Origin: a virus | Length of the DNA stretch: 30,525 nt | IMG/VR virus record: IMGVR_UViG_3300044911_001514 | Location: 1-30,525 of that record | Reading direction: 5' to 3' (one strand) | Part shown: positions 18,387-27,852 of the stretch, piece by piece | How positions within the stretch are numbered: the stretch's first letter is position 1 | Layout: each line of letters begins with the position of its first letter | Notes under the pieces: model-generated | Told to the model about the DNA's origin: nothing | Seen by the model: the letters and a program-made list of their open reading frames with translations, nothing else | Databases searched by the model: none | Program-made: the position numbers and the translations under genes

Positions 18387-18602
18387 ATGGCTTGGGGTGA
18401 ATGGATGGCCCCGGAACCAGGGCCCGAGCATTACCTAACGCTTGAAAGGCAACGACGTGCTGTGCAGCAATATGACGAACAAGAAGCCAAGGCAATGCTG
18501 ATAAAGCTGTGTCAACTGGCTATGCACCAAGACTTAATTATCAGAGCAGCTACGCGGCACATCGCAGAGCTTGAATGTCTTCAGGCCTTGCAGAATAATT
18601 GA
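18387..18602 (+). CDS. Small helical protein, NblA-like pattern
   Basis: This 71-residue protein is isolated on the plus strand and converges on the sigma factor gene, overlapping its 3' end by 53 bases. The sequence YLTLERQRRAVQQY followed by AKAMLIKLCQLAMHQDLII resembles the two-helix NblA pattern (L-S/T-L/V-E-Q-x, then L-x-I/L-x3-Q-x-M-x-x-E/D-N-x-I). NblA triggers phycobilisome breakdown and occurs in several cyanophages. The spacing between the two blocks is shorter than in host NblA, so homology is only a suggestion. If wrong, it is an unknown small coiled protein. Confidence 0.45.
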   Translation: MAWGEWMAPEPGPEHYLTLERQRRAVQQYDEQEAKAMLIKLCQLAMHQDLIIRAATRHIAELECLQALQNN

Positions 18603-19470
18603 GCTTTAACCGCAGTTTGCGCAGTGCAGCATCATGGCGCTGATTTGCAGTTTGGCGAGAGATGCCTAGCTCTTTTCCAATCCTGGTAAACGGAACAGGC
18701 TGATCCTCGCCACTCATGTACCGTCGCTTAATAATCACCTGCTCCTCAGGCGCCAGGTCATTCAGCAGCTTTGGCAGCATCGCCACAATGTTGTCCAGCT
18801 CGCTCAGCATTGACGGCTCAATCGGCACATCAGCCAACAGCTCAAGGTAAGTGCTGGTTTCGCTTGTGCTGGATTGGCTTTTCACTCGATCATCCAAGCT
18901 GATCACCGACGCGCTATGCGGTAGGTAATGCTTCAGCGTCGGCAGGGAAACACCGCAATGCTCTGCCACCTCCCCCAGGCTTGGCACGCGACTGTTCTCT
19001 CGCTGCTGCGTGCGCATGTAGTCGTTCGCCTTTTTGATTGAAGCAATGGCCCCGCACGGGATGCGGATTGAGCGTGACTTATTGCTGATCGCCCTGTTGA
19101 TTGATTGCCTAATCCAGTTGAAGGCGTAGGTGCTGAACTTATACCCACGTTGCGGATCGAACTTGATGATTGCCCGCTCAAGCCCTAGCAACCCCTCCTG
19201 GATCAGGTCGTCCAAGCCAAGTGACCCAGAGATTTTTGTGTAGCGGCTAGCTACCTTGACGACCAAGCGAATGTTGCTCAGAAAGAAGCTGTCATAGGCG
19301 TGCTTACCCCTACGAACAATTTTCTGCTGCTCTTTAGTCAGTTCCGCTAGATCACGGATCTCAACCCATGCCTGCACTTGCCTTGCCAAAACAATTTCTT
19401 GTTCAGCCGTTAGCAATGGGTAGTTGTGTGATTGCTGGAGAATCCACTCGACGGTTTCAGTGCTTGCCAC
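18550..19470 (-). CDS. Sigma-70-family RNA polymerase sigma factor
   Basis: A 306-residue sigma factor from a GTG start. Region 1.2 is at about 5-40, region 2 at 55-135 (NIRLVVKVASRYT, LDDLIQEGLLGL, RGYKFSTYAFNWIRQSINRAI), region 3 at 150-190 and region 4 at 235-290. The layout matches cyanobacterial group-2 factors. Several DNA-contact positions differ from primary sigma factors: the melting tryptophan equal to E. coli W433 is N118, T440 is N125, and in the -35 helix E585 and R588 are Q273 and N276. It may redirect host polymerase to a phage promoter class. A hairpin with a T-run stands 11 bases before its start. Confidence 0.9.
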   Translation of the reverse strand: MASTETVEWILQQSHNYPLLTAEQEIVLARQVQAWVEIRDLAELTKEQQKIVRRGKHAYDSFFLSNIRLVVKVASRYTKISGSLGLDDLIQEGLLGLERAIIKFDPQRGYKFSTYAFNWIRQSINRAISNKSRSIRIPCGAIASIKKANDYMRTQQRENSRVPSLGEVAEHCGVSLPTLKHYLPHSASVISLDDRVKSQSSTSETSTYLELLADVPIEPSMLSELDNIVAMLPKLLNDLAPEEQVIIKRRYMSGEDQPVPFTRIGKELGISRQTANQRHDAALRKLRLKLNYSARPEDIQALRCAA

Positions 19471-20403: not shown

Positions 20404-20623
20404 CCAATAAACCCGGTGCAGATAAGGATCTATGGAGTAACGACAGGTCGTGTTTGATGCGCTGGAGCAGGGCGCGATGGGCGCAGTGGTTGCCGAAGTT
20501 AACCAGTCGTGCGTTGTATGCAGCTTCTGCATATGCTTCCGCTGATGAAGATTCGTACACGGCGATGGCATTGCATACATGCGCGAGAGCCAGTCGAATG
20601 TCGTCATTTGCTTGATACGGCAT
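20387..20623 (-). CDS. Hypothetical helical protein
   Basis: A 78-residue, almost all-helical product (DDIRLALAHVCNAIAVYESS, AEAAYNARLVNFGNH, LLQRIKHDLSLLHRSL). It overlaps the end of ERF by 20 bases and is preferred over the competing frame starting at 20607, whose N-terminal 55 residues look like shadow translation. The competing start does form an ATGA overlap with ERF, so the choice is not certain. Function unknown. Confidence 0.55.
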   Translation of the reverse strand: MPYQANDDIRLALAHVCNAIAVYESSSAEAYAEAAYNARLVNFGNHCAHRALLQRIKHDLSLLHRSLSAPGLLGADEQ

Positions 20624-21266
20624 TTAATTCCTTCAGCAGAAAATCGCGATGAATTGCCGTCTTCACATAGTCAGCAGCTTTCCCCTTTTCTGGGATGGCA
20701 AAACGGGCTTTAAACGCGGCGACCACCTCTTCGCGCCGCCCCTGGGGCAAAGCCACAACGGCATTCACCAGCTCATCTTTTTCCTGTTGGCTTAGCCGCT
20801 CAGGGTTTACGGAGTTCAGCCGCTTTGCGCTTGGCTTCTCCTGATCTTCGCTAGCGCTAACCGCCTTTGCAGCAGCAGGCGCGGCTTGAGTTGCATGGTC
20901 ACCGTCATCGTCTTCAATGCCAGCCGACAAGGACAAGATGGCCAACAACGCATAGCGGCGGCTGTAAGTGGTAGCGCCTCCCCAGTCATGCAGTGGATTG
21001 CGACCCTTTGGCACAACCAAGGGCAGCCTGCTTTCAATGCGCTCACCACTTGTATGCAGCAAAGCGGTCACCAGCACTTGCTCACCGTCAGCACAAGGCT
21101 CAAACGTCTGAACAACAGCAAGACCGTTTTTTGATAGCGCTGGCAGCACAGTGCTCAGAACAGCAGCCAGGTCTGCATATTTGCCGTATTGGGCGTGTGC
21201 CTCTTTGTGGATCGTGGACACATCACGATGAAAGGCGCATAACGCCTTTGTTAGCTCGGCGGTCAT
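20604..21266 (-). CDS. erf: ERF-family single-strand annealing protein
   Basis: This 220-residue protein has the ERF core: YGKYADLAAVLSTVLPALSKNGLAVVQ near residues 26-52, HTSGERIESRLPL in the middle and GGATTYSRRYALLAILSL before an acidic DDDGDH at about 130. ERF (phage P22) anneals complementary single strands in recombination and genome circularisation. The C-terminal part is Ala/Lys-rich and ends in a second small helical domain. It is the first gene of a leftward operon directly behind a clear promoter (21308-21336). The natural partner is the exonuclease in the right arm. Confidence 0.88.
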   Translation of the reverse strand: MTAELTKALCAFHRDVSTIHKEAHAQYGKYADLAAVLSTVLPALSKNGLAVVQTFEPCADGEQVLVTALLHTSGERIESRLPLVVPKGRNPLHDWGGATTYSRRYALLAILSLSAGIEDDDGDHATQAAPAAAKAVSASEDQEKPSAKRLNSVNPERLSQQEKDELVNAVVALPQGRREEVVAAFKARFAIPEKGKAADYVKTAIHRDFLLKELNAVSSK

Positions 21267-21307: not shown

Positions 21308-21336
21308 ACCATAGGCTAGGCAAGCCTAGTCGTCAA
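21308..21336 (-). promoter_or_regulatory. Leftward promoter with CTAG-N6-CTAG operator
   Basis: Read on the minus strand, TTGACG (21336-21331) and TATGGT (21313-21308) are 17 bases apart. The spacer holds a perfect inverted repeat CTAGGC-AA-GCCTAG (21316-21329). It lies just before ERF and over the stop of the HTH gene. The element closely matches the promoter at 27824-27852. Confidence 0.75.
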
Positions 21337-21994
21337 CTGCTTTATCCCACGCCGCTAACGCCACGTCTACTGGGTCGTTGCCGTTCGCGCAAATCGCCTC
21401 CCATTCGCCCGGATCCCACACGTGCCACCCGCTTAGCACGTTGCGCAACAGGTCCTTCTGGCCAGCAGTCAGGCCATTGCAATGCTGCTCCAGCTGCTTC
21501 CATGCCTGTGCTGGCTTAAGGCCTTTGGTCTCGGCTATCGCCTCAAAGCGCTCCTGGTGCTTGGCACTCATCGCCTCAGCCTCCTTTGCCGTCAGCGGTT
21601 CTGGCAGTTGCAGCGACGTAGGCGCCTCAAGCTCACCCACGAAATGCCCGAAAAACTCCATGGCCCCCCATGGCTTGCCGGTGGCATCGCAAATCGCCTC
21701 GGAATCCTTGAGCCGGTCCTTCAGTTGACGGTCACTCACACCCTTGTAATCGCCTGCTGCCACACGGGCATTGGCCATCGCTAGCTGAATAAAGGTCAGG
21801 GGTGACGGCTGCTCTGTCTTGGAGTTCTGCAGACGGTTAAAGCTGCTGTCTCGCACCGCCGGGAACCCAGCCTGTTCACCCCATTCATGCAGCGTGCTGT
21901 GGGTCCAGCCGTTGCGGATCACCCAAGCGTTGAGCGTGCGCCCGAACCGTTGCCTGGCGGCTAGCGAAGGGTGCTTGTAACGGTCGTGCTCCAT
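21326..21994 (-). CDS. Putative HTH transcriptional repressor
   Basis: A 222-residue protein whose first 75 residues fit an XRE-like helix-turn-helix with long loops: RFGRTLNAWVIRNGW, then STLHEWGEQAGFP, then LTFIQLAMANARVA. The remainder is helical and shows no S24 peptidase motif, so RecA-driven self-cleavage is not expected. It stands between integrase and ERF on the leftward strand, where a lysogeny repressor would be. A cluster of three CTAG sites lies 22 bases before its ATG, as expected if it controls itself. The role is inference. Confidence 0.55.
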   Translation of the reverse strand: MEHDRYKHPSLAARQRFGRTLNAWVIRNGWTHSTLHEWGEQAGFPAVRDSSFNRLQNSKTEQPSPLTFIQLAMANARVAAGDYKGVSDRQLKDRLKDSEAICDATGKPWGAMEFFGHFVGELEAPTSLQLPEPLTAKEAEAMSAKHQERFEAIAETKGLKPAQAWKQLEQHCNGLTAGQKDLLRNVLSGWHVWDPGEWEAICANGNDPVDVALAAWDKAVDD

Positions 21995-22015
21995 GGGGCT
22001 TGGCTCCGGTATTGG

Positions 22016-22040
22016 CTAGCTTACCGCTAGGAACTGCTAG
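22016..22040 (-). promoter_or_regulatory. Triple CTAG operator cluster before the HTH gene
   Basis: Three CTAG tetramers stand at 22016-22019, 22027-22030 and 22037-22040, with gaps of seven and six bases. The cluster covers the stop of the integrase gene and lies upstream of the HTH gene start. No strong -35 box is visible here, so it may act as operator more than promoter. Confidence 0.55.
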
Positions 22041-23451
22041 GCGCACTTGCCCCTGTCCTTAGCTTTGTCTCCACCACCACCCCATCGCGCACCACCATCC
22101 GCTCAAGCCACTGGCTAAACAGCTCCCTCTGGCGCTCTGGCGTTGCCAGCAGTTCATCCCATACCTCCTGACGGTCCAACGCAGCCTCCGCATCGTCCAA
22201 GCTGAACCGTGAGCCACCATCCGCGATCCGCTCATTGATCAACGCATCCAGCCGCTTGGCCTTACGCGCAATCACGCCAGCCACCTCTGGATCCTCTAGC
22301 AGCTTCAAATCCCTGATCTGTGCCTGCAGCTTCTGCACCTCAGGACTTAGCTGCTGCCGTAACTGCAGCTCCTTAATCACGCCCCCATAGGCCAGCAGCT
22401 GGCGATGATCAGCCAACACGTCAACAGCCGCCTGCACCGCTTCGTCCTCCCTAATTGCCGTATGAGGCCGCTTTGCGCAAAGCCGATACGTGCATCTGTA
22501 GTAATGGGGCCCATCCTTTCGCGGATAGTGGTGAGACATGGTGTGCCCGCAGTAACCGCACTCCAGCAGGTTGGTCAGCACCCTTGTCCGCCTTGGACTT
22601 ACGGGCGTCAGCCTCCTGTGCCCCAATGAATGCACCACAGCTGCCACCCTCTTCTGTTGTTCAGCGCTAATCAACGCTGGATGGGCATTTGGATAGGTCT
22701 CCATTACTTGGCCTGGTGGATTGATCAGTCTTCTCTTGCTGCTATCGGGCTTGATCACCCATTTGCACGTTCCATAGACACGGGCGCCAGTAATGGCTGG
22801 ATTCAGTAGCCATCGCTTTAAGCCCTCTGTGCTTTTGAACGGTGCCCCACAATGCGCCTCTTGGTATGCAAAAGCCTTTTGCAGGCTCGCTGTCGCCAGC
22901 AACTCGTTGACAATTTCTTGCGCGAAGGGCGCCAGCTTTTCGTCAACCTCGTAATTCATCTTCCCCTCTGTGTACCGATAGCCCCACGGCGGTTTGCCTG
23001 CCTGTGGCTTCATCTGCGTGCGTGCATACACCTGGCCGTGATGGACCCTTTCGCCAATCAGCTCTGACTCCATTTGCGCCAAGCTCATCAGCAGTGATGC
23101 GTAAAAACGCCCGGCCGCTGTAGCCAAGTCAATCGGCTGATCAAGGCAAATCAGGTTTGGCCAATGGTCTTGGTTGAACAGGCGCAGCAGCCTGCCGCCG
23201 TGGACCGTTGAGCGGCTCATCCGGTCAAGCCGCGTGCAGATCACCGTGGTCAGCTGCCCACCATCACAAGCCTTCAGCAGCCGCGTCAGTTCCGGCCTGT
23301 CATCCCGCGTTGCGCTGGCCACGTCCACAAACTCAACTAGCGGCTCCCCAAGCTCTGCCGCCTTCAACCGCAGGCGATGCAGCTGCTGCTCAAGTGCGTG
23401 TGCCTGCTCCTCTGACTGGGTTGAGACGCGGGCGTAAATCGCCGTGGCCAC
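22027..23451 (-). CDS. Large serine integrase
   Basis: A 474-residue serine recombinase from a GTG start. The catalytic domain has YARVS with nucleophile S10 and R74-x-D76-R77-x-x-R80 (TRLDRMSR). The recombinase domain covers about 145-260. A zinc ribbon has C298-x2-C301 and C320-x4-C325. A coiled-coil-rich segment (about 340-400) follows. Such enzymes integrate phage DNA at attP/attB without supercoiling and need a separate directionality factor for excision. The gene faces away from the right arm; the 93 bases before its start are a candidate attP region but show no clear core. No cognate excision factor is recognisable. Confidence 0.92.
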   Translation of the reverse strand: MATAIYARVSTQSEEQAHALEQQLHRLRLKAAELGEPLVEFVDVASATRDDRPELTRLLKACDGGQLTTVICTRLDRMSRSTVHGGRLLRLFNQDHWPNLICLDQPIDLATAAGRFYASLLMSLAQMESELIGERVHHGQVYARTQMKPQAGKPPWGYRYTEGKMNYEVDEKLAPFAQEIVNELLATASLQKAFAYQEAHCGAPFKSTEGLKRWLLNPAITGARVYGTCKWVIKPDSSKRRLINPPGQVMETYPNAHPALISAEQQKRVAAVVHSLGHRRLTPVSPRRTRVLTNLLECGYCGHTMSHHYPRKDGPHYYRCTYRLCAKRPHTAIREDEAVQAAVDVLADHRQLLAYGGVIKELQLRQQLSPEVQKLQAQIRDLKLLEDPEVAGVIARKAKRLDALINERIADGGSRFSLDDAEAALDRQEVWDELLATPERQRELFSQWLERMVVRDGVVVETKLRTGASAPSSS

Positions 23452-23544
23452 TGCTGTGCAAAGGCTTCTCTATTTGCTAGCTTATGGACACAGGCCTAGG
23501 ACTTCCAGAGGTACTTCGCCTGTAACCACGCTGCGTAAACCCGC

Positions 23545-23805
23545 ATGACCACAGCATTTCGCGCCTTGACAGGGCAGCCGATCAGTGCCAGCACGTTGAC
23601 CGATTTGATGGGCCAAGAGGGCCTGGCGTATGAGTCGCTAGGGGCTGGCGTGCGTGACGCTTTGAGGTGCTTGTCGGATGCGCGTGAGTTCTATGCCCTA
23701 CCGGAAGCGCTTGGGCCGGGGCTGAGCCGGTTTGAGGGGCATTTGAAGCAGGCGCTGGTGGTGCTGGGCGAGCTGCAGAGTGACGCAAATCTGCTGCATT
23801 CTTAG
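23545..23805 (+). CDS. Small hypothetical protein beside integrase
   Basis: An 86-residue helical protein (TLTDLMGQEGLAYESLGAGVRDALRCL, then GLSRFEGHLKQALVVLGELQ), divergent from the integrase and first of the rightward genes. It has no DNA-binding motif that I can see. Position makes a directionality factor, an antirepressor or a copy-control protein possible, but nothing in the sequence decides. Its codon use is normal for the region, which supports coding. Confidence 0.55.
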   Translation: MTTAFRALTGQPISASTLTDLMGQEGLAYESLGAGVRDALRCLSDAREFYALPEALGPGLSRFEGHLKQALVVLGELQSDANLLHS

Positions 23806-23841
23806 GTTTGTCGCTAGCGGAGCCTATTGTTCTTAGGTCAA

Positions 23842-23855
23842 CTAGCAGCCGCTAG
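23842..23855 (+). promoter_or_regulatory. CTAG-N6-CTAG operator before RHH gene
   Basis: CTAGCAGCCGCTAG stands 26 bases before the RHH gene. GTCAA touches the left CTAG, a reversed copy of the TTGAC box found at the other sites. It shares the CTAGC-A/T-GCCGCTAG form with the site at 25250. No matching -10 box is clear on the plus strand. Confidence 0.5.
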
Positions 23856-23881
23856 GCCGCTGGGAACAACCGAGAACCGCA

Positions 23882-24088
23882 ATGACCGCTTCACTTCAAC
23901 GGGTGTCGCGTAGCCCCAAACGCATCACGATTACCGTCTCGCACTCCGTCAGCGAACACCTGCTGACCCTCAGCGATGAACAGGGGCGGAGCACCAGCAA
24001 CTTGGCGGCCTACCTGTTGGAGGTGGCGCTGGATGCGCTGGATGGGAAGCCACCAATCCCCAAGCGCTGGCCCGGCCAAGCCGCCTGA
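23882..24088 (+). CDS. Ribbon-helix-helix regulator (CopG/Arc-like)
   Basis: The 68-residue product has a basic start, the strand KRITITVSHS, helix VSEHLLTLSDEQ and second helix TSNLAAYLLEVALDAL, the full RHH order. Such proteins bind DNA as dimers through the paired strands. It follows a CTAG operator and is followed directly by a strong terminator, so it is probably a single-gene transcript. Its position near the integrase suits a Cro-like or other switch protein; that is inference. Confidence 0.7.
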   Translation: MTASLQRVSRSPKRITITVSHSVSEHLLTLSDEQGRSTSNLAAYLLEVALDALDGKPPIPKRWPGQAA

Positions 24089-24090
24089 TC

Positions 24091-24116
24091 GCCCCGGCCC
24101 CCACCGGGGCCTTTTT
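24091..24116 (+). terminator. Rho-independent terminator
   Basis: GCCCCGG (24091-24097) pairs with CCGGGGC (24104-24110), followed by C and five T. It begins two bases after the RHH stop and ends the RHH transcript ahead of the first 68-bp repeat element. Confidence 0.88.
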
Positions 24117-24128
24117 GTGCCCCACCCC

Positions 24129-24224
24129 GTAACCCATTTGTGACAGGTGGTGAAGCGGCCACCACCGACCCCTGATCTGTGTCACGTGTGGGTTACAGTT
24201 AGTTCATCGGAGGCAAGGCCCTCC
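24129..24224 (+). promoter_or_regulatory. 68-bp inverted-repeat control element, copy 1, with leader hairpin
   Basis: Left arm GTAACCCATTTGTGACA (24129-24145) and right arm TGTCACGTGTGGGTTAC (24180-24196) are inverted copies with three mismatches in 17. Each arm contains two GTNAC units 11 bases apart. Thirty-four bases separate the arms, and GGTGGT/ACCACC can pair in the spacer. After the right arm, GGAGG (24209-24213) pairs with CCTCC (24220-24224), which could hide a ribosome site before the ATG at 24240. A TACAGT near the right arm end is a possible -10 box. Confidence 0.7.
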
Positions 24225-24239
24225 ACCGCACCGCAAACC

Positions 24240-24578
24240 ATGACCACCAACACCTTCAACCCCCAAATCGGTGATGCCTGCAGCTGGGCCATCTACACCG
24301 ATGTTGAGCCCTGCACCGTCATTGCCCGCACTGCCAAGACCGTCAAAGTCCGCGTCAACAAGACCGAGATCGCCAAGGCGCCCGAGATGATCCCTGGCGG
24401 TTTTGCTGGCGTCGTAACCGAGCCGGCCGAGTGGCGCATCCTTGATGAGCTGGAGGAGCGGGTCCTGACTTTTTCCCAGCGAGGCAACGGTTCCTGGAAG
24501 CTCAAGGGCACCAGCAGCAACAGCCGAGGTAACTTCCTGCGCCCCGGCCACCGCAAGTTCTACGACTACGGCTTCTAG
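24240..24578 (+). CDS. Hypothetical protein, small beta-rich
   Basis: I use the ATG at 24240, because the open frame before it lies inside the inverted-repeat element. The 112-residue product begins MTTNTFNPQIGDACSW and has a strand-rich part (EPCTVIARTAKTVKVRVNK) and an end rich in Gly, Arg and Tyr (FLRPGHRKFYDYGF). The VIARTAKTVKV and PGxxxFYDYxF blocks recur in small proteins of unknown role in diverse phages. It belongs to the first of two cassettes with the same control element. Confidence 0.65.
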   Translation: MTTNTFNPQIGDACSWAIYTDVEPCTVIARTAKTVKVRVNKTEIAKAPEMIPGGFAGVVTEPAEWRILDELEERVLTFSQRGNGSWKLKGTSSNSRGNFLRPGHRKFYDYGF

Positions 24579-24592
24579 GCCGCTTGCCAGCC

Positions 24593-24684
24593 GTAACCCA
24601 TTTGTGACAACGTGTGAACTGGCACGGCCGCGGCCTCCCCTGCTGTCACGTGTGGGTTACTATTAATTCAACGGGGGCGACCCC
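24593..24684 (+). promoter_or_regulatory. 68-bp inverted-repeat control element, copy 2, with leader hairpin
   Basis: The left arm (24593-24609) is identical to copy 1 and the right arm (24644-24660) is identical too. The spacer is again 34 bases, but its sequence is different and contains CGTG/CACG and the palindrome GGCCGCGGCC. After it comes TACTAT (possible -10), then GGGG-GCGA-CCCC (24673-24684), a hairpin with a GNRA loop, 15 bases before the ATG at 24700. Confidence 0.7.
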
Positions 24685-24699
24685 ACCGCAAAACCAACC

Positions 24700-24939
24700 A
24701 TGACCACCGCTCCTCTGCTCAGCATCGGCACTTTCGGCACCCAGCTTGTTTGCTGCAGCGGCACCTACTCCTTCAGCGGCACCGTGCCTACAAGCATCAA
24801 AGTTGGTGGCTACCTCAGCGAGCAGGCTGGCCTGGAAGCGTTTGCTGCATGGTTCAAAGCCCAAGACGCCTCCTTCCAGCGTGAGCACGTTGCCGACCTT
24901 CGCAACGACGTGTTCGCTCTTGTGATTGCATCCGCCTGA
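24700..24939 (+). CDS. Small hypothetical protein
   Basis: A 79-residue product (MTTAPLLSIGTFGTQLVCCSG) with strands in the first half and helices in the second (EQAGLEAFAAWFKAQD, EHVADLRNDVFALVIASA). It is preceded by the second 68-bp control element and followed by a terminator, so it forms a self-contained cassette. It does not resemble the product of the first cassette beyond the MTT start. No family recognised. Confidence 0.6.
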   Translation: MTTAPLLSIGTFGTQLVCCSGTYSFSGTVPTSIKVGGYLSEQAGLEAFAAWFKAQDASFQREHVADLRNDVFALVIASA

Positions 24940-24948
24940 TTCCTTACC

Positions 24949-24971
24949 GGCCCCTACGGGGGCCTTTTCTT
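24949..24971 (+). terminator. Rho-independent terminator abutting next start codon
   Basis: GGCCCC-TAC-GGGGGCC followed by TTTTCTT. The T-run ends at the base before the ATG of the zinc-ribbon gene, so that gene has no leader of its own unless polymerase reads through. Confidence 0.85.
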
Positions 24972-25187
24972 ATGCCTGACACCGACGCCACTAGAGCCAA
25001 GCGCTACCGCGACCGCAAAGCGGGGCTGCTGCCTGATCTGCCTGATTGTCCCAAGTGCGGGAAGCAGGTGCGCAATGCCGACAAGGGGGGCCTGTGTAGC
25101 CGCTGCTGGCGCCTGACGCCTGAGGGCCGTGAGTGGAACGCCGCTAAGACGGCTCGCAGCCGTAGCCGCGCCAAACGGGAAGGGTGA
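24972..25187 (+). CDS. Small zinc-ribbon protein
   Basis: A 71-residue, strongly basic protein with two cysteine pairs, CPKCGK (about 26-31) and LCSRCW (about 41-46), forming a zinc ribbon. Both ends are rich in Arg and Lys (RAKRYRDRKAG, SRSRAKREG). The N-terminal R-x-K-R-Y-R-x-R-K block is common in small phage proteins of this kind. DNA or RNA binding is likely. It begins directly behind a terminator T-run with no ribosome site, so its expression is unusual or the start is leaderless. Confidence 0.65.
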   Translation: MPDTDATRAKRYRDRKAGLLPDLPDCPKCGKQVRNADKGGLCSRCWRLTPEGREWNAAKTARSRSRAKREG

Positions 25188-25238
25188 TGCATCCCGCAGC
25201 AGGTCGCGGTGGACTCAGTGATTAGGGCCGTGCAGGGG

Positions 25239-25266
25239 TTGACCTATGACTAGCTGCCGCTAGTTT
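25239..25266 (+). promoter_or_regulatory. Rightward promoter with perfect CTAG operator
   Basis: TTGACC (25239-25244) and TAGTTT (25261-25266) are 16 bases apart. The inverted repeat ACTAGC-TGCC-GCTAGT spans 25249-25264, so a bound dimer would cover the spacer and -10. It stands 79 bases before the replication-type gene at 25346; the leader between them holds no other clear signal. Confidence 0.6.
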
Positions 25267-25345
25267 CTCCGGTAGCCGAGCAATACCGCAGCACTACTGC
25301 TGGTGGGCTCAGCACTACCTACCCACTACTGCACCGCTACCGCTT

Positions 25346-26071
25346 GTGCCACAGCTGAATTTCACGATTCCAGCGCACCTGCTGGACAGGATCGACGCCG
25401 CAAAGCCTGACTTCCTAGACAGGAAGGGCTTTATCTGCCTGCTGCTAGCTAACGCTATTGACACGGGGTCTAAGCTACCCGCGTACCGTGTCGGTGCGGG
25501 AAACACAGGTCACACGGCAACGGAGACAGACTCTGCACCTCTACCGCAGCCAAGCTGGGTAGAAGACCGTCTCTCTCCTGAACAAACGTTTACTGACCTC
25601 CCTTCCCATATAGATCTGGGGGATGGTGTCGGGAGGGAGTCTGAGGGAGGACCTAGGAAGGGGGATTTATGGATTCCTCGGAACAAGAAAGACCACCTGC
25701 CCAGCATTCCTCGCACCAAGGTCAAGAACAGCCGTGACCTGCGTGGCAACTTGCTGGCGCATGACGACCTGATCAAAGAGTTTTGGCAGATCAAGGGAGG
25801 AAGCAGAGGCGACCGTGCCTGGGCCCTTTTGCAAACCGAGCTGACCAAGATTCAGGAGAAGCATGGCGACGCGGTGGTGCGTCAGCAGCTGGAGCTGGCG
25901 ATCAATGGCAAGTGGAAGGGCGTGACCCTGGCCAACCTTGAACGCTTTGATGCCCCTGCTGGGCAACGAGGTCAAACAGGCAGCGCGGCTCCCAAAACCC
26001 CTCAGCAGTTGATCGTCGAATCGGTCATTCGCAAGCACCAAGAGATGGAGGCGAACCGTGCTCCCTTTTGA
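25346..26071 (+). CDS. Putative replication/DNA-binding protein
   Basis: The 241-residue product starts at GTG; no ATG is close. The first 40 residues (LNFTIPAHLLDRIDAAKPDF, then GFICLLLANAI) fit a ribbon-helix-helix arm. A polar linker covers about 50-110. The C-terminal 110 residues (FWQIKGGSRGDRAWALLQTELTKIQEKHG, then LELAINGKWKGVTLANLERF) look like the helical domain found after DNA-binding modules in phage replication proteins. It heads three overlapping genes of the replication region. Role by context only. Confidence 0.6.
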   Translation: MPQLNFTIPAHLLDRIDAAKPDFLDRKGFICLLLANAIDTGSKLPAYRVGAGNTGHTATETDSAPLPQPSWVEDRLSPEQTFTDLPSHIDLGDGVGRESEGGPRKGDLWIPRNKKDHLPSIPRTKVKNSRDLRGNLLAHDDLIKEFWQIKGGSRGDRAWALLQTELTKIQEKHGDAVVRQQLELAINGKWKGVTLANLERFDAPAGQRGQTGSAAPKTPQQLIVESVIRKHQEMEANRAPF

Positions 26072-26453
26072 GCATTTCACCGCCACGCTCGGCGCCCTGA
26101 GCGAAGCACTGCCACGCGGTAAGCGGATGGCGGAATCGACCTTTGCTCTGCTGTGGGCCACCTTCCCTGCCAAAGCCAAGGAAGACCTCACGCCTGAGAT
26201 CTGGATTTACGCCGCTGCGCAGCGCCTGCTCGACCCCGACCCCATGGAAGACCTGCCCCTGCCTATGCAGCTTTTGAATTACGTGTTCCGCAACGAGAAC
26301 GGCCGCGCCAACGTCGCGTGGGGCCTGAAGGCTGATCTACCGGAGCGGATGGCCAGACCTGATTGCTTCAACCCTCAGCCCACGCCAGGTGCTGTTGTCC
26401 TTTTGCCGGAAGAGCCCGTGACCAACCCTGTGCTGCAGGGGGTGCAATGGTGA
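26058..26453 (+). CDS. Hypothetical replication-region protein
   Basis: A 131-residue protein from a GTG start overlapping the previous gene by 14 bases. The helical core (FALLWATFPAKAKEDLTPEIWIYAAAQRLLD, then MQLLNYVFRNENGRANVAWGL) is hydrophobic and Trp-rich, with a Pro-rich tail. Its place after the initiator-like gene suggests a helicase-loader-like or other accessory factor, but no ATPase motif is present. No family named. Confidence 0.6.
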   Translation: MLPFEHFTATLGALSEALPRGKRMAESTFALLWATFPAKAKEDLTPEIWIYAAAQRLLDPDPMEDLPLPMQLLNYVFRNENGRANVAWGLKADLPERMARPDCFNPQPTPGAVVLLPEEPVTNPVLQGVQW

Positions 26454-26788
26454 CGCAATTAACCCTGTGCCTTGAAGGCGAAGCCAACAAAGCCATCGGC
26501 ATGGCACGCGCCTATGACAACGCCAACACCGAATGGCGTGATGCAGCCTTGGCCATCGTCCGCAACTTGGCCGCTACCTGCTGTGAGTTCACGTCTGATC
26601 AGGTCTGGGCAGAACTTGACGCCCAAGGTTTCCGCACGCGAGAGCATCGCGCCATGGGTGCTGTCATGCGGGCCGCGGCAATGGACGGCCTGATCATCAA
26701 AACCGACCGCGTGGTGCCCACCATCAGGCCCTGCGCTAATCGCCGCCCAGTAGCCATTTGGCGTTCGTTATTGACTAGGGCTAACTAG
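26447..26788 (+). CDS. Putative winged-helix protein
   Basis: The ATG at 26447 follows GGGGGT and overlaps the previous stop; the open frame before it is antisense-like sequence. The 113 residues contain a winged-helix-like pattern: DAALAIVRNLAATCCEFTSDQVW, then REHRAMGAVMRAAAMDGLI, then SR-type basic end RPVAIWRSL. Similar short proteins with the motif (F-T-x-D-x-V-W ... R-A-x-G-x-x-M/F-R-x-A) occur in replication regions of many phages. DNA binding is likely. Confidence 0.6.
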   Translation: MVTQLTLCLEGEANKAIGMARAYDNANTEWRDAALAIVRNLAATCCEFTSDQVWAELDAQGFRTREHRAMGAVMRAAAMDGLIIKTDRVVPTIRPCANRRPVAIWRSLLTRAN

Positions 26789-26796
26789 CTTTTGAT
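26768..26796 (+). promoter_or_regulatory. CTAG-N6-CTAG operator directly before a start codon
   Basis: CTAGGGCTAACTAG (26775-26788) covers the stop of the winged-helix gene and ends eight bases before the ATG at 26797. TTGACT at 26771 overlaps the left CTAG. A -10 at normal spacing would fall on the start codon, so the site either silences read-through or drives a nearly leaderless transcript. It matches the operator at 27831 in 13 of 14 bases. Confidence 0.55.
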
Positions 26797-27291
26797 ATGA
26801 ACAGCATCTTTGACAACGCATCTGTTGCATTAACTCTTCGCCACGGCATTGAAAAGGGCCTCTGGACCCTTGAGCAGCTCGATCAACCATCACCCGGTTA
26901 CGAACTCTGCCTGCGCGAAGCACGCCGCAACAAATACTTCGGCTTTGATTTCTTCCCGCCAGTCCCCTATGCCAACCCCCTCCGCCGCACCGAAACCGTT
27001 GAAGTCGTCGCCGCCAACGTGCCCATCCCCGATTTGGCTTCAGCCGTTAGGGCTAACGAGGGACAGCCAAACGTGGACATACCTCAGCCCGAGCGGTCAG
27101 CCCTTCCCGGTGAGCGTCACCCAGCTGATTGGAGCGGTGACCAAGACCGAGAAACAGATCGAAGCCATCATGGCCAGCAAGGCGACATGGGAGCCGAGGG
27201 GCAACACGCTGCACCAGACGCTGGAGGCATTCGTCAACCAACGCTGGAATCCCAACCCACCGCCGAACCTGCAAGCACCGCCCCTTGGTGA
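26797..27291 (+). CDS. Hypothetical protein overlapping exonuclease gene
   Basis: The first 85-95 residues (MNSIFDNASVALTLRHGIEKG, LEQLDQPSPGYELCLREARRN, FGFDFFPPVPYANPLRR) look like real coding sequence. From about residue 95 the frame runs through the exonuclease domain of the next gene and reads as Asp/Gln/His-rich shadow sequence to the stop. Either the gene really has this long tail, or the true protein continues into the exonuclease frame by a +1 shift. The start lies directly after a CTAG operator. Confidence 0.55.
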   Translation: MNSIFDNASVALTLRHGIEKGLWTLEQLDQPSPGYELCLREARRNKYFGFDFFPPVPYANPLRRTETVEVVAANVPIPDLASAVRANEGQPNVDIPQPERSALPGERHPADWSGDQDRETDRSHHGQQGDMGAEGQHAAPDAGGIRQPTLESQPTAEPASTAPW

Positions 27292-27673
27292 CTACGCCGA
27301 GTGGATCGAACCGCTGCTGGCCTCACCGTTATGGGACCGCATCACAGTGGTGGGCAGTGAAATCATGGCCTACAGCACACGCCGCAACGTTGCCGGCACC
27401 GCTGATCTGGTCATTCAGTTCCCGGATGGCTCCTTTGGCATCGCTGACCTGAAAACCCAGAGCAGCAAAACCAGCCAGCCCTATGACACCAAACCGCAAC
27501 TGGGCGCCGGTGTGGAGATGATCGGGGAGCTGTACGACCTGCCGATCAGTCGTTGCCTCACCCTTTGGTCACGCCCTGGCAGCCTCACGATCCAAACCCA
27601 CACCGCCGACGAATGCCTGCAGGCCTGGTCCTACGCCTGTGAGCAGTACGCAGCACGCTTTCGCCCCTGGTAA
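26969..27673 (+). CDS. PD-(D/E)XK exonuclease (RecB/Cas4-like)
   Basis: From ATG 26969 the product has 234 residues. The nuclease residues are complete: H82 (NTLHQTLEAF), E131 (VVGSEIMAY), D146 (GTADLVI), D160-x-K162 (IADLKT). This is the RecB-nuclease layout of phage exonucleases that resect ends for an annealing partner, here ERF. The start is doubtful: the conserved part begins near TWTYLSPSG (about 35), no start codon lies close, and residues 1-30 look like shadow of the overlapping gene. The open frame extends back to 26849. Confidence 0.85.
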   Translation: MPTPSAAPKPLKSSPPTCPSPIWLQPLGLTRDSQTWTYLSPSGQPFPVSVTQLIGAVTKTEKQIEAIMASKATWEPRGNTLHQTLEAFVNQRWNPNPPPNLQAPPLGDYAEWIEPLLASPLWDRITVVGSEIMAYSTRRNVAGTADLVIQFPDGSFGIADLKTQSSKTSQPYDTKPQLGAGVEMIGELYDLPISRCLTLWSRPGSLTIQTHTADECLQAWSYACEQYAARFRPW

Positions 27674-27707
27674 GTCCCTAATTAGCCGCACCTAGCCCCA
27701 TAGGCTC

Positions 27708-27824
27708 CCATCCCATGTCACTCTGTACCTGCCGGGATGGCCTGAATACAACACCCGAAAGGGGAATCAGGGCGGGTTTTTGCGGACCATCGGAATCCCG
27801 GCACCCCTTCTCTGCAATAGGGGT
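27708..27824 (+). other. Structured intergenic region with terminator-like T-run
   Basis: Several stems are possible. GCCGGGAT (27731-27738) pairs with ATCCCGGC (27795-27802) and would close a branched structure containing CCTGA/TCAGG (27741-27745/27767-27771) with CCC-GAAA-GGG inside. CCATCCC (27708-27714) pairs with GGGATGG (27734-27740) and competes with the first stem. ACCTGCC (27727-27733) can pair with GGCGGGT, followed by five T to 27781. ACCCC/GGGGT forms a last hairpin up to the promoter. It ends the exonuclease operon and may be a terminator, attenuator or small RNA. Confidence 0.5.
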
Positions 27825-27852
27825 TGACGACTAGGGCTGACTAGCCTACCTT
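27824..27852 (+). promoter_or_regulatory. Rightward promoter with CTAG-N6-CTAG operator
   Basis: TTGACG (27824-27829) and TACCTT (27847-27852) are 17 bases apart and CTAGGGCTGACTAG (27831-27844) fills the spacer. The -35 box, operator position and the CTAGCCTA after the second CTAG are shared with the leftward ERF promoter. It stands 30 bases before the first small gene of the right end. Confidence 0.75.

Follow-up and report, generated by a model that had tools for sequence, protein, structure and literature searches.

The six CTAG-N6-CTAG sites of this viral DNA almost certainly form an operator network, a putative assignment that is based on the statistics of the sites and on their conservation, and the probable binder and repressor is a protein of 222 amino acids encoded among them. 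In the whole stretch of 30,525 bases (the window), a complete scan found exactly six occurrences, at 21316, 22027, 23842, 25250, 26775 and 27831, all of them confined to the part from 21.3 to 27.9 kb. The initial annotation had listed these same six coordinates, all of which are exact, and there is no seventh site. It had also placed the sites between genes or over stop codons, and this is borne out: The sites at 23842, 25250 and 27831 are intergenic, those at 22027 and 26775 make up the final 14 bases, including the stop codon, of the integrase gene and of ORF 26363-26788, respectively, and the site at 21316 shares bases with the stop codon of the 222-aa ORF.

This arrangement is not a matter of chance. 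The window contains 65 CTAG tetramers (about 60 by the earlier hand count), and for any one given spacing 0.14-0.15 pairs are expected as compared to the six that are present; the earlier estimate of fewer than one pair agrees with the computed expectation of 0.14. Among 400 dinucleotide shuffles, the mean number of CTAG-N6-CTAG sites was 0.15 and the maximum 2, and the highest count at any spacing from 0 to 40 in any shuffle was 3. The Poisson probability of six sites is 9e-9, or 4e-7 once it is corrected for the 41 spacings, and if each CTAG was moved by up to 50 bases, six N6 pairs were obtained in 0 of 100,000 trials. The observation is therefore confirmed as real.

The two sites at the outer ends of the region lie inside promoters of the two early arms, and the promoter elements had been read correctly in the initial annotation. 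On the left, a PL-like promoter on the minus strand (TTGACG-N17-TATGGT; -35 at 21336-21331, -10 at 21313-21308) precedes the first gene of the leftward arm, which encodes an ERF single-strand annealing protein (20604-21266, minus strand; PF04404, phrog_2324), and the putative operator CTAGGCTTGCCTAG (21329-21316, minus strand) lies within its 17-nt spacer. On the right, a PR-like promoter on the plus strand (TTGACG-N17-TACCTT, 27824-27852) contains the putative operator CTAGGGCTGACTAG (27831-27844) in its 17-nt spacer; the marker gene immediately before it encodes an exonuclease (26849-27673, plus strand; phrog_298). Each arm promoter has one strict site, and additional CTAGs and near-sites, e.g. 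at 27682, surround the arm promoters here as well as in relatives. Between the arms, the gene of the 222-aa candidate repressor (21326-21994, minus strand), whose N-terminal fold is Xre-like in the model, is preceded by three CTAGs (22016, 22027 and 22037; 22016-22040) at the end of the gene for a large serine recombinase, the integrase (22027-23451, minus strand; PF00239, PF07508, PF13408, phrog_95). The strict putative operator among them (22027-22040) is a candidate autoregulatory site.

Further sites are found in leaders. A 68-aa ribbon-helix-helix (RHH) protein of the CopG/Arc type, RHH1 (23882-24088, plus strand; PF07878, 41 bits), which is the rival candidate for the binder, is preceded by a promoter-like element (TTAGGT-N17-TATTGT, 23802-23830, plus strand). 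Its spacer holds the one-mismatch operator CTAGCGGAGCCTAT (23814-23827), which ranks seventh by score within the window, and the putative operator CTAGCAGCCGCTAG (23842-23855) follows in the leader. The putative operator CTAGCTGCCGCTAG (25250-25263) is contained in a promoter-like element (TTGACC-N16-TAGTTT, 25239-25266, plus strand) in such a way that its right half overlaps the -10 element. The protein encoded downstream (25346-26071) had been taken for a second RHH protein, a detail that is less well supported: at a threshold of E <= 1e-3, no RHH domain was matched. Finally, the putative operator CTAGGGCTAACTAG (26775-26788) covers the end of ORF 26363-26788, stop codon included, immediately 5' of the exonuclease region. 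A promoter considered at this site (TTGACT-N17-GATATG) was dropped because the site lacks conservation and the -10 element would run into the start codon of the next gene.

Homologs of the 222-aa protein are encoded on about 59 viral contigs of IMG/VR, and the two arm promoter sites are kept in sequence and position among them. Nearly all relatives have the 29-nt pattern TTGACnnCTAGn6CTAGnCTAnnnT at two positions. On the left, it lies between the 222-aa gene and ERF (TTGAC-N2-CTAG-N6-CTAG-N2-TAnnnT), a design found at 46 related loci with 20 distinct 29-mers; on the right, the promoter follows the exonuclease gene in nearly all relatives whose contig extends there, with the site usually 149-152 nt past the exonuclease stop codon. 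The CTAG half-sites are fixed while the six inner bases vary. Related contigs carry one to four strict sites as compared to 0.1-0.3 expected, and hence both checks that the initial annotation had proposed for relatives, enrichment of the spacing and conservation in dozens of them, came out in its favour. Conservation in place applies to 21316 and 27831 and, in a looser form, to 25250, for which an N6 site is kept in the leaders of L012, L014, L017, L018, L020, L025, L028, L031, L038, L047 and L049. The sites at 22027, 23842 and 26775 are not conserved in place and look lineage-specific: around 22016-22040 the relatives retain CTAGs mostly at spacings other than N6, and at the place that matches 23842 they have a CTAG, again with a different spacing. 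The near-site before RHH1 (23814) is kept in most relatives and is a strict CTAG-N6-CTAG in L017, L018, L028, L032 and L046. Two contigs, G007 and G008, have an additional copy, CTAG-N6-CTAGTTATACT, ahead of the scaffold and capsid genes, and G006 has the same stretch. CTAG pairs at spacings of 2 and 24 recur in relatives too, partly inside coding sequence; the common gap-2 pairs (CTAGNNCTAG) were set aside with several of them located within genes. No near DNA match to the window was found among phages, and a pattern scan for the integrase did not detect relatives even though 48 of 50 loci hold a similar integrase gene.

Given the sites, their statistics, the conserved promoter geometry, synteny and co-occurrence, we infer that they serve as operators of an immunity-type phage repressor. 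The initial annotation had proposed a single repressor for both arms, encoded by the HTH gene, and this is supported for the 222-aa protein as a candidate. The argument that three CTAGs precede this gene is weak; however, independent evidence from distant prophages points to the same gene. Seven such prophages encode homologs that are 40-44% identical and adjoin ERF, and in each of the seven a strict or degenerate site (several with one or two half-site mismatches) lies at the promoter of the homolog's operon, ahead of its first gene and 465-553 nt 5' of the homolog. Family homologs in the same order that lack ERF (L121-L143) have no strict site nearby. In close relatives, co-occurrence cannot separate the possible binders because the 222-aa gene and RHH1 are always together there. 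We regard the 222-aa protein as the best candidate since the operator accompanies the HTH-ERF pair into the distant prophages, whereas no homolog of RHH1 was found in the three examined (G018, L064 and L065; tblastn with the window protein against 20-24 kb of each). With ORFs of the relatives as queries, the same three contigs produced a single weak match (E 0.008, 42 aa), located at 21 kb of G018.

In the proposed model, two subunits of the 222-aa protein would form a dimer with one HTH on each CTAG; the half-sites are 10 bp apart from centre to centre, i.e. one helical turn, and would thus be presented on the same face of the DNA. With the operator occupying the 17-bp spacer, both the leftward (ERF) and the rightward promoter (small genes, RusA) would be closed to RNA polymerase once a dimer is bound, and the position of the operator fits such a steric repression. 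Both early arms would be silent as long as the repressor is bound and would fire together upon its loss. For the RHH gene and ORF 25346, silencing may come from the sites in their leaders, and the repressor may regulate its own expression through those close to its gene or operon.

The 222-aa protein itself has no match in Pfam, PHROG or NCBIfam. The profile of the Xre/Cro-CI HTH (PF01381) matches neither the window nor any of 21 homologs of the protein, Pfam gave no S24 peptidase domain for the protein or its homologs, PDB sequence searches had no match, and no relatives were found among the isolated phages and plasmids searched; a scan of genome contigs yielded none with the single sequence and two with the alignment. 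The AlphaFold model (pLDDT 86.6) has N-terminal helices at 11-28, 34-42, 49-56 (the presumed recognition helix) and 65-80 and an all-helical C-terminal part, which had no clear fold when the C-terminal half was modelled alone. The structural neighbours of the model are mostly Xre/Cro-CI domains, among them 434 Cro and the 434 repressor, with VIA-align Z-scores of 4-6.7, all below 8, which may reflect a common helical arrangement; none of the Foldseek matches was individually significant. As modelled, the N-terminal fold thus weakly resembles Xre/Cro-CI domains.

The sites could be operators for a different binder, RHH1, with one RHH dimer per CTAG and the dimers 10 bp apart. Tandem half-sites at a distance of about one turn are a frequent target of RHH repressors, RHH1 is clearly a PF07878 protein, with conservation in 40 of 50 loci, and there are sites in its own leader. 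Nevertheless, we consider this assignment unlikely: the distant prophages with matching sites have the 222-aa homolog while RHH1 was not found in the three contigs, and the RHH1 leader in relatives also has another inverted repeat, a wider one (CTAGTCCCGC..TGCGACGGCTAG), that could be RHH1's own operator. It is very improbable that the CTAG pairs are instead an architectural promoter element for an activator or for the sigma-70-family protein that the phage encodes (ORF 18550-19470). The pairs stand in a fixed register to the -35 and -10 elements at both arm promoters, but TTGAC and TAnnnT at a 17-nt spacing are already ordinary promoter elements for which an activator in the spacer is unnecessary, a second register exists with the right CTAG overlapping the -10 element, and the dyad looks like a dimer site.

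The idea that the phage borrows a host regulon by binding a host regulator has the lowest probability, and we reject it. The promoters do resemble ordinary host sigma-70 promoters; however, there is no host regulon because Synechococcus SynAce01 (2.8 Mb) and Cruz-7E5 (3.2 Mb) have just 1 and 2 strict sites, respectively, no more than chance given the local CTAG density. The sole site in SynAce01 (1,191,919) lies within the reported range of the prophage phiSynAce2 (1,186,119-1,204,368; PMC6337551) and was not counted; a transposase-like ORF and small genes surround it, with no 222-aa homolog. An HTH homolog is encoded in SynAce01 at 76,795-77,406, in a region with distant HTH-ERF-exonuclease-terminase relatives that is close to phiSynAce1, reported at 65,524-73,790 (PMC6337551). 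That prophage description is not known to include a repressor or operator analysis.

The network run by the 222-aa protein as its candidate repressor looks like that of lambda and 434, with an uncharacterised repressor family without an S24 domain. As for CI and Cro in the lambdoid switch, short dyads lie over the -35/-10 region of the main early promoter in each arm (21308-21336 and 27824-27852), the candidate repressor gene is located between the arms, and its product is predicted to have a DNA-binding fold with a weak resemblance to Xre. The operators of 434 have 4-bp half-sites 6 bp apart, the same spacing as in the window. In contrast to the lambdoid phages, the half-site is CTAG, there is mostly one strict site per promoter (the lambdoid OL and OR are clusters of three adjacent operators, and additional CTAGs and near-sites lie around the arm promoters here), neither a recognisable relation in sequence nor an S24 auto-cleavage domain is seen in the candidate repressor, and putative operators are also present in leaders outside both arms. 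CTAG half-sites are known from TrpR operators, where they are closer together; no relation of the 222-aa protein to TrpR emerged from any of the searches described above. Actinophage L5 has many dispersed sites for a repressor without an S24 domain, and like here, several operator copies are spread over the genome, in relatives of the window with one near structural genes. The L5 sites are asymmetric and mostly transcription roadblocks, whereas those of the window are dyads inside promoters. A literature search for CTAG phage operators found none.

To our knowledge, lysogeny control in the phages of picocyanobacteria is poorly understood. The window belongs to a temperate virus of Synechococcus-type cyanobacteria, and the putative switch recurs beside a repressor-like gene in dozens of related viruses. 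Tentatively, the 222-aa protein may represent an uncharacterised family of cyanobacterial-phage repressors with an Xre-like N-terminus and a helical C-terminus without S24 that would bind CTAG-N6-CTAG in promoter spacers and repress the two early arms and regulatory genes, as well as a promoter ahead of the scaffold/capsid genes in relatives; one protein might thus gate much of the genome and be released in a way other than RecA-driven self-cleavage. Pfam, PHROGs and NCBIfam do not name this conserved protein family, for which a function is hereby suggested. With a concrete candidate repressor-operator pair and predicted promoters, present both in environmental phages by the dozen and in prophages of Synechococcus strains whose genomes are sequenced, the lysogeny control of such cyanophages becomes directly testable, and temperate cyanophages may be searched for by means of the operator.

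The six copies of CTAG-N6-CTAG that the initial annotation placed at 21316, 22027, 23842, 25250, 26775 and 27831 lie exactly there, and the 30,525-base record contains no further copy: Three are intergenic, one overlaps a stop codon, and each of the other two forms the final 14 bases of an ORF. The 65 CTAG tetramers in the window give 0.14 expected pairs at any one spacing, in agreement with the earlier estimate of fewer than one chance pair. Dinucleotide shuffles of the window averaged 0.15 pairs and never exceeded 2, six pairs were never regenerated when the CTAGs were jittered locally, and every other spacing with a gap of up to 60 occurs at most twice in the window. The Poisson probability of six sites is 9e-9, or 4e-7 when corrected for 41 spacings. 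With the 222-aa protein (21326-21994, minus strand) as the query we found 50 IMG/VR loci, and 59 with an alignment, mostly at 60-82% identity. The enrichment on which the operator idea depended is also present in these relatives: The contigs of 15 of them carry one to four strict sites each as compared to 0.1-0.3 expected for one spacing, and the six sites of the window are thus at the high end.

Leftward from about 23.45 kb, the window encodes a large serine recombinase, the 222-aa protein, which has no family match, and the ERF annealing protein (20604-21266). Rightward follow a conserved 86-aa ORF, a 68-aa RHH protein (PF07878; 23882-24088), more small ORFs, an exonuclease and a RusA-like resolvase. 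A sigma-70-family protein (18550-19470, minus strand) has a similar ORF in 31 of the 50 relatives; a dCTP deaminase-like protein of the late region (PF22769; 16666-17178) has a counterpart in one of the 50 loci, which often end short of this region. The record probably covers only part of a phage genome, and the relatives found point to a Synechococcus-type cyanobacterium as the probable host.

In nearly every relative, TTGAC-N2-CTAG-N6-CTAG-CC-TAnnnT stands directly past the 222-aa gene and reads into the ERF gene (21308-21336 in the window, minus strand), and a second copy of this 29-nt design points the other way on the right arm (27824-27852, plus strand). The left set, drawn from 46 loci, comprises 20 distinct 29-mers; the right set has about 15, with the left-arm sequences of loci L047 and L049 sorted into the right-arm list. 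The half-site bases are nearly constant and the inner bases differ (cgttgg, cgaagg, gggaag, cagaag, gcttgc and others). In most relatives, 149-152 nt separate the exonuclease stop codon from the start of the right promoter (151 nt in the window); the distance is greater in a few, e.g. L007 and L031, and in some (L014, L017, L018 and L047) one half of the right-arm site is degraded.

As counterparts of site 25250, many relatives carry either CTAG-N6-CTAG or CTAG-N6-CTAA in the leader of the corresponding ORF, and at sites of this type the right CTAG overlaps a -10-like TAGnnT. The leader of the RHH gene contains a promoter-like TTAGGT-N17-TATTGT and, at 23814, a one-mismatch site that most relatives share, with a strict form in five; at the place of the strict site 23842, relatives have no strict site. 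Sites 22027 and 26775 are not conserved in place in relatives, although loci L055 and L059 do carry strict sites close to the position of 22027. The related genomes G007 and G008 carry CTAG-N6-CTAGTTATACT immediately upstream of scaffold and capsid genes, in a stretch shared by G006. What looks like a second, distinct operator or promoter element, GTAACCCATTTGTGACA ... GTCACGTGTGGGTTAC, is present twice (24129-24196 and 24593-24660) ahead of small ORFs around 24240 and 24700; its two arms, whose starts lie 52 nt apart, form a rough inverted repeat. A wide inverted repeat, GCGCTAGTCCCGC..TGCGACGGCTAGCG, is conserved right before the RHH gene in relatives (e.g. L020, L029 and L031) and is not present in that form in the window; it is possibly an RHH operator.

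The 222-aa protein is the candidate binder, and here the comparative evidence outweighs that from its fold. Its AlphaFold model (mean pLDDT 86.6) has four N-terminal helices. Foldseek returned no significant match, with Xre/Cro-CI domains predominating in its list, and VIA-align gave Z scores of up to 6.7 for this class and 4.3-4.4 for 434 Cro and 434 repressor; a Xre/Cro-CI-like fold is thereby only suggested. Xre sequence profiles did not match the protein. More distant homologs (40-44% identity) adjoin ERF in genomes of the Synechococcus order and in one additional viral contig. Upstream sequence was sufficient for seven of them, and each of these has an operator, strict or degenerate, 465-553 nt upstream and a short way in front of the first gene in the homolog's operon (CTAGCGCCAGCTAG, CTAGCGGAAGCTAG, TTAGCGCCAGCTAG, CTAGCGCTTGCTAC, CTAGCGGTCTGTAG, GTAGCGTCACCTAG and TTAGCGAGCGATAG). 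Scored with a matrix made from close relatives, host background contains only about 0-6 equally good sites per 100 kb; seven in the same short interval are therefore not due to chance, although the seven loci are related to each other. For the RHH protein, the rival candidate, no homolog was found in the three distant-homolog contigs tested. Many Synechococcus-order genomes contain several members of the 222-aa family (loci L121-L143 included), roughly 234-256 aa long and with no adjoining ERF, and no strict site was found close to such ERF-less homologs. At about 72-87 kb of SynAce01 (L065) there are ERF, exonuclease, replication-initiation-like and terminase genes. Since these lie partly past the published borders of phiSynAce1 (65,524-73,790; PMC6337551), this prophage is probably larger than reported.

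A dimer site with two 4-bp halves 10 bp apart within a 17-bp promoter spacer has the layout of a steric repressor target, and this leads us to read the set as a putative immunity-type switch. What the sequences show is the sites themselves, their significance, the promoter geometry, the synteny and the association with the 222-aa gene. We infer that a single repressor, probably the 222-aa protein, would bind and act at both arms, and might also regulate its own synthesis and control the RHH gene and further early genes in lysogeny. Induction by RecA-driven self-cleavage of this protein is unlikely, since profiles detected no S24 domain and the helices modelled for its C-terminal half have no clear relative. 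The proposed switch would work like lambdoid repressor-operator systems, but its half-site is different and the candidate protein comes from an unnamed family. A limited literature search found no published report of a CTAG-N6-CTAG operator. To our knowledge, there is no tested example of lysogeny control in picocyanobacterial phages, and it is for this reason that such a switch would be of interest.
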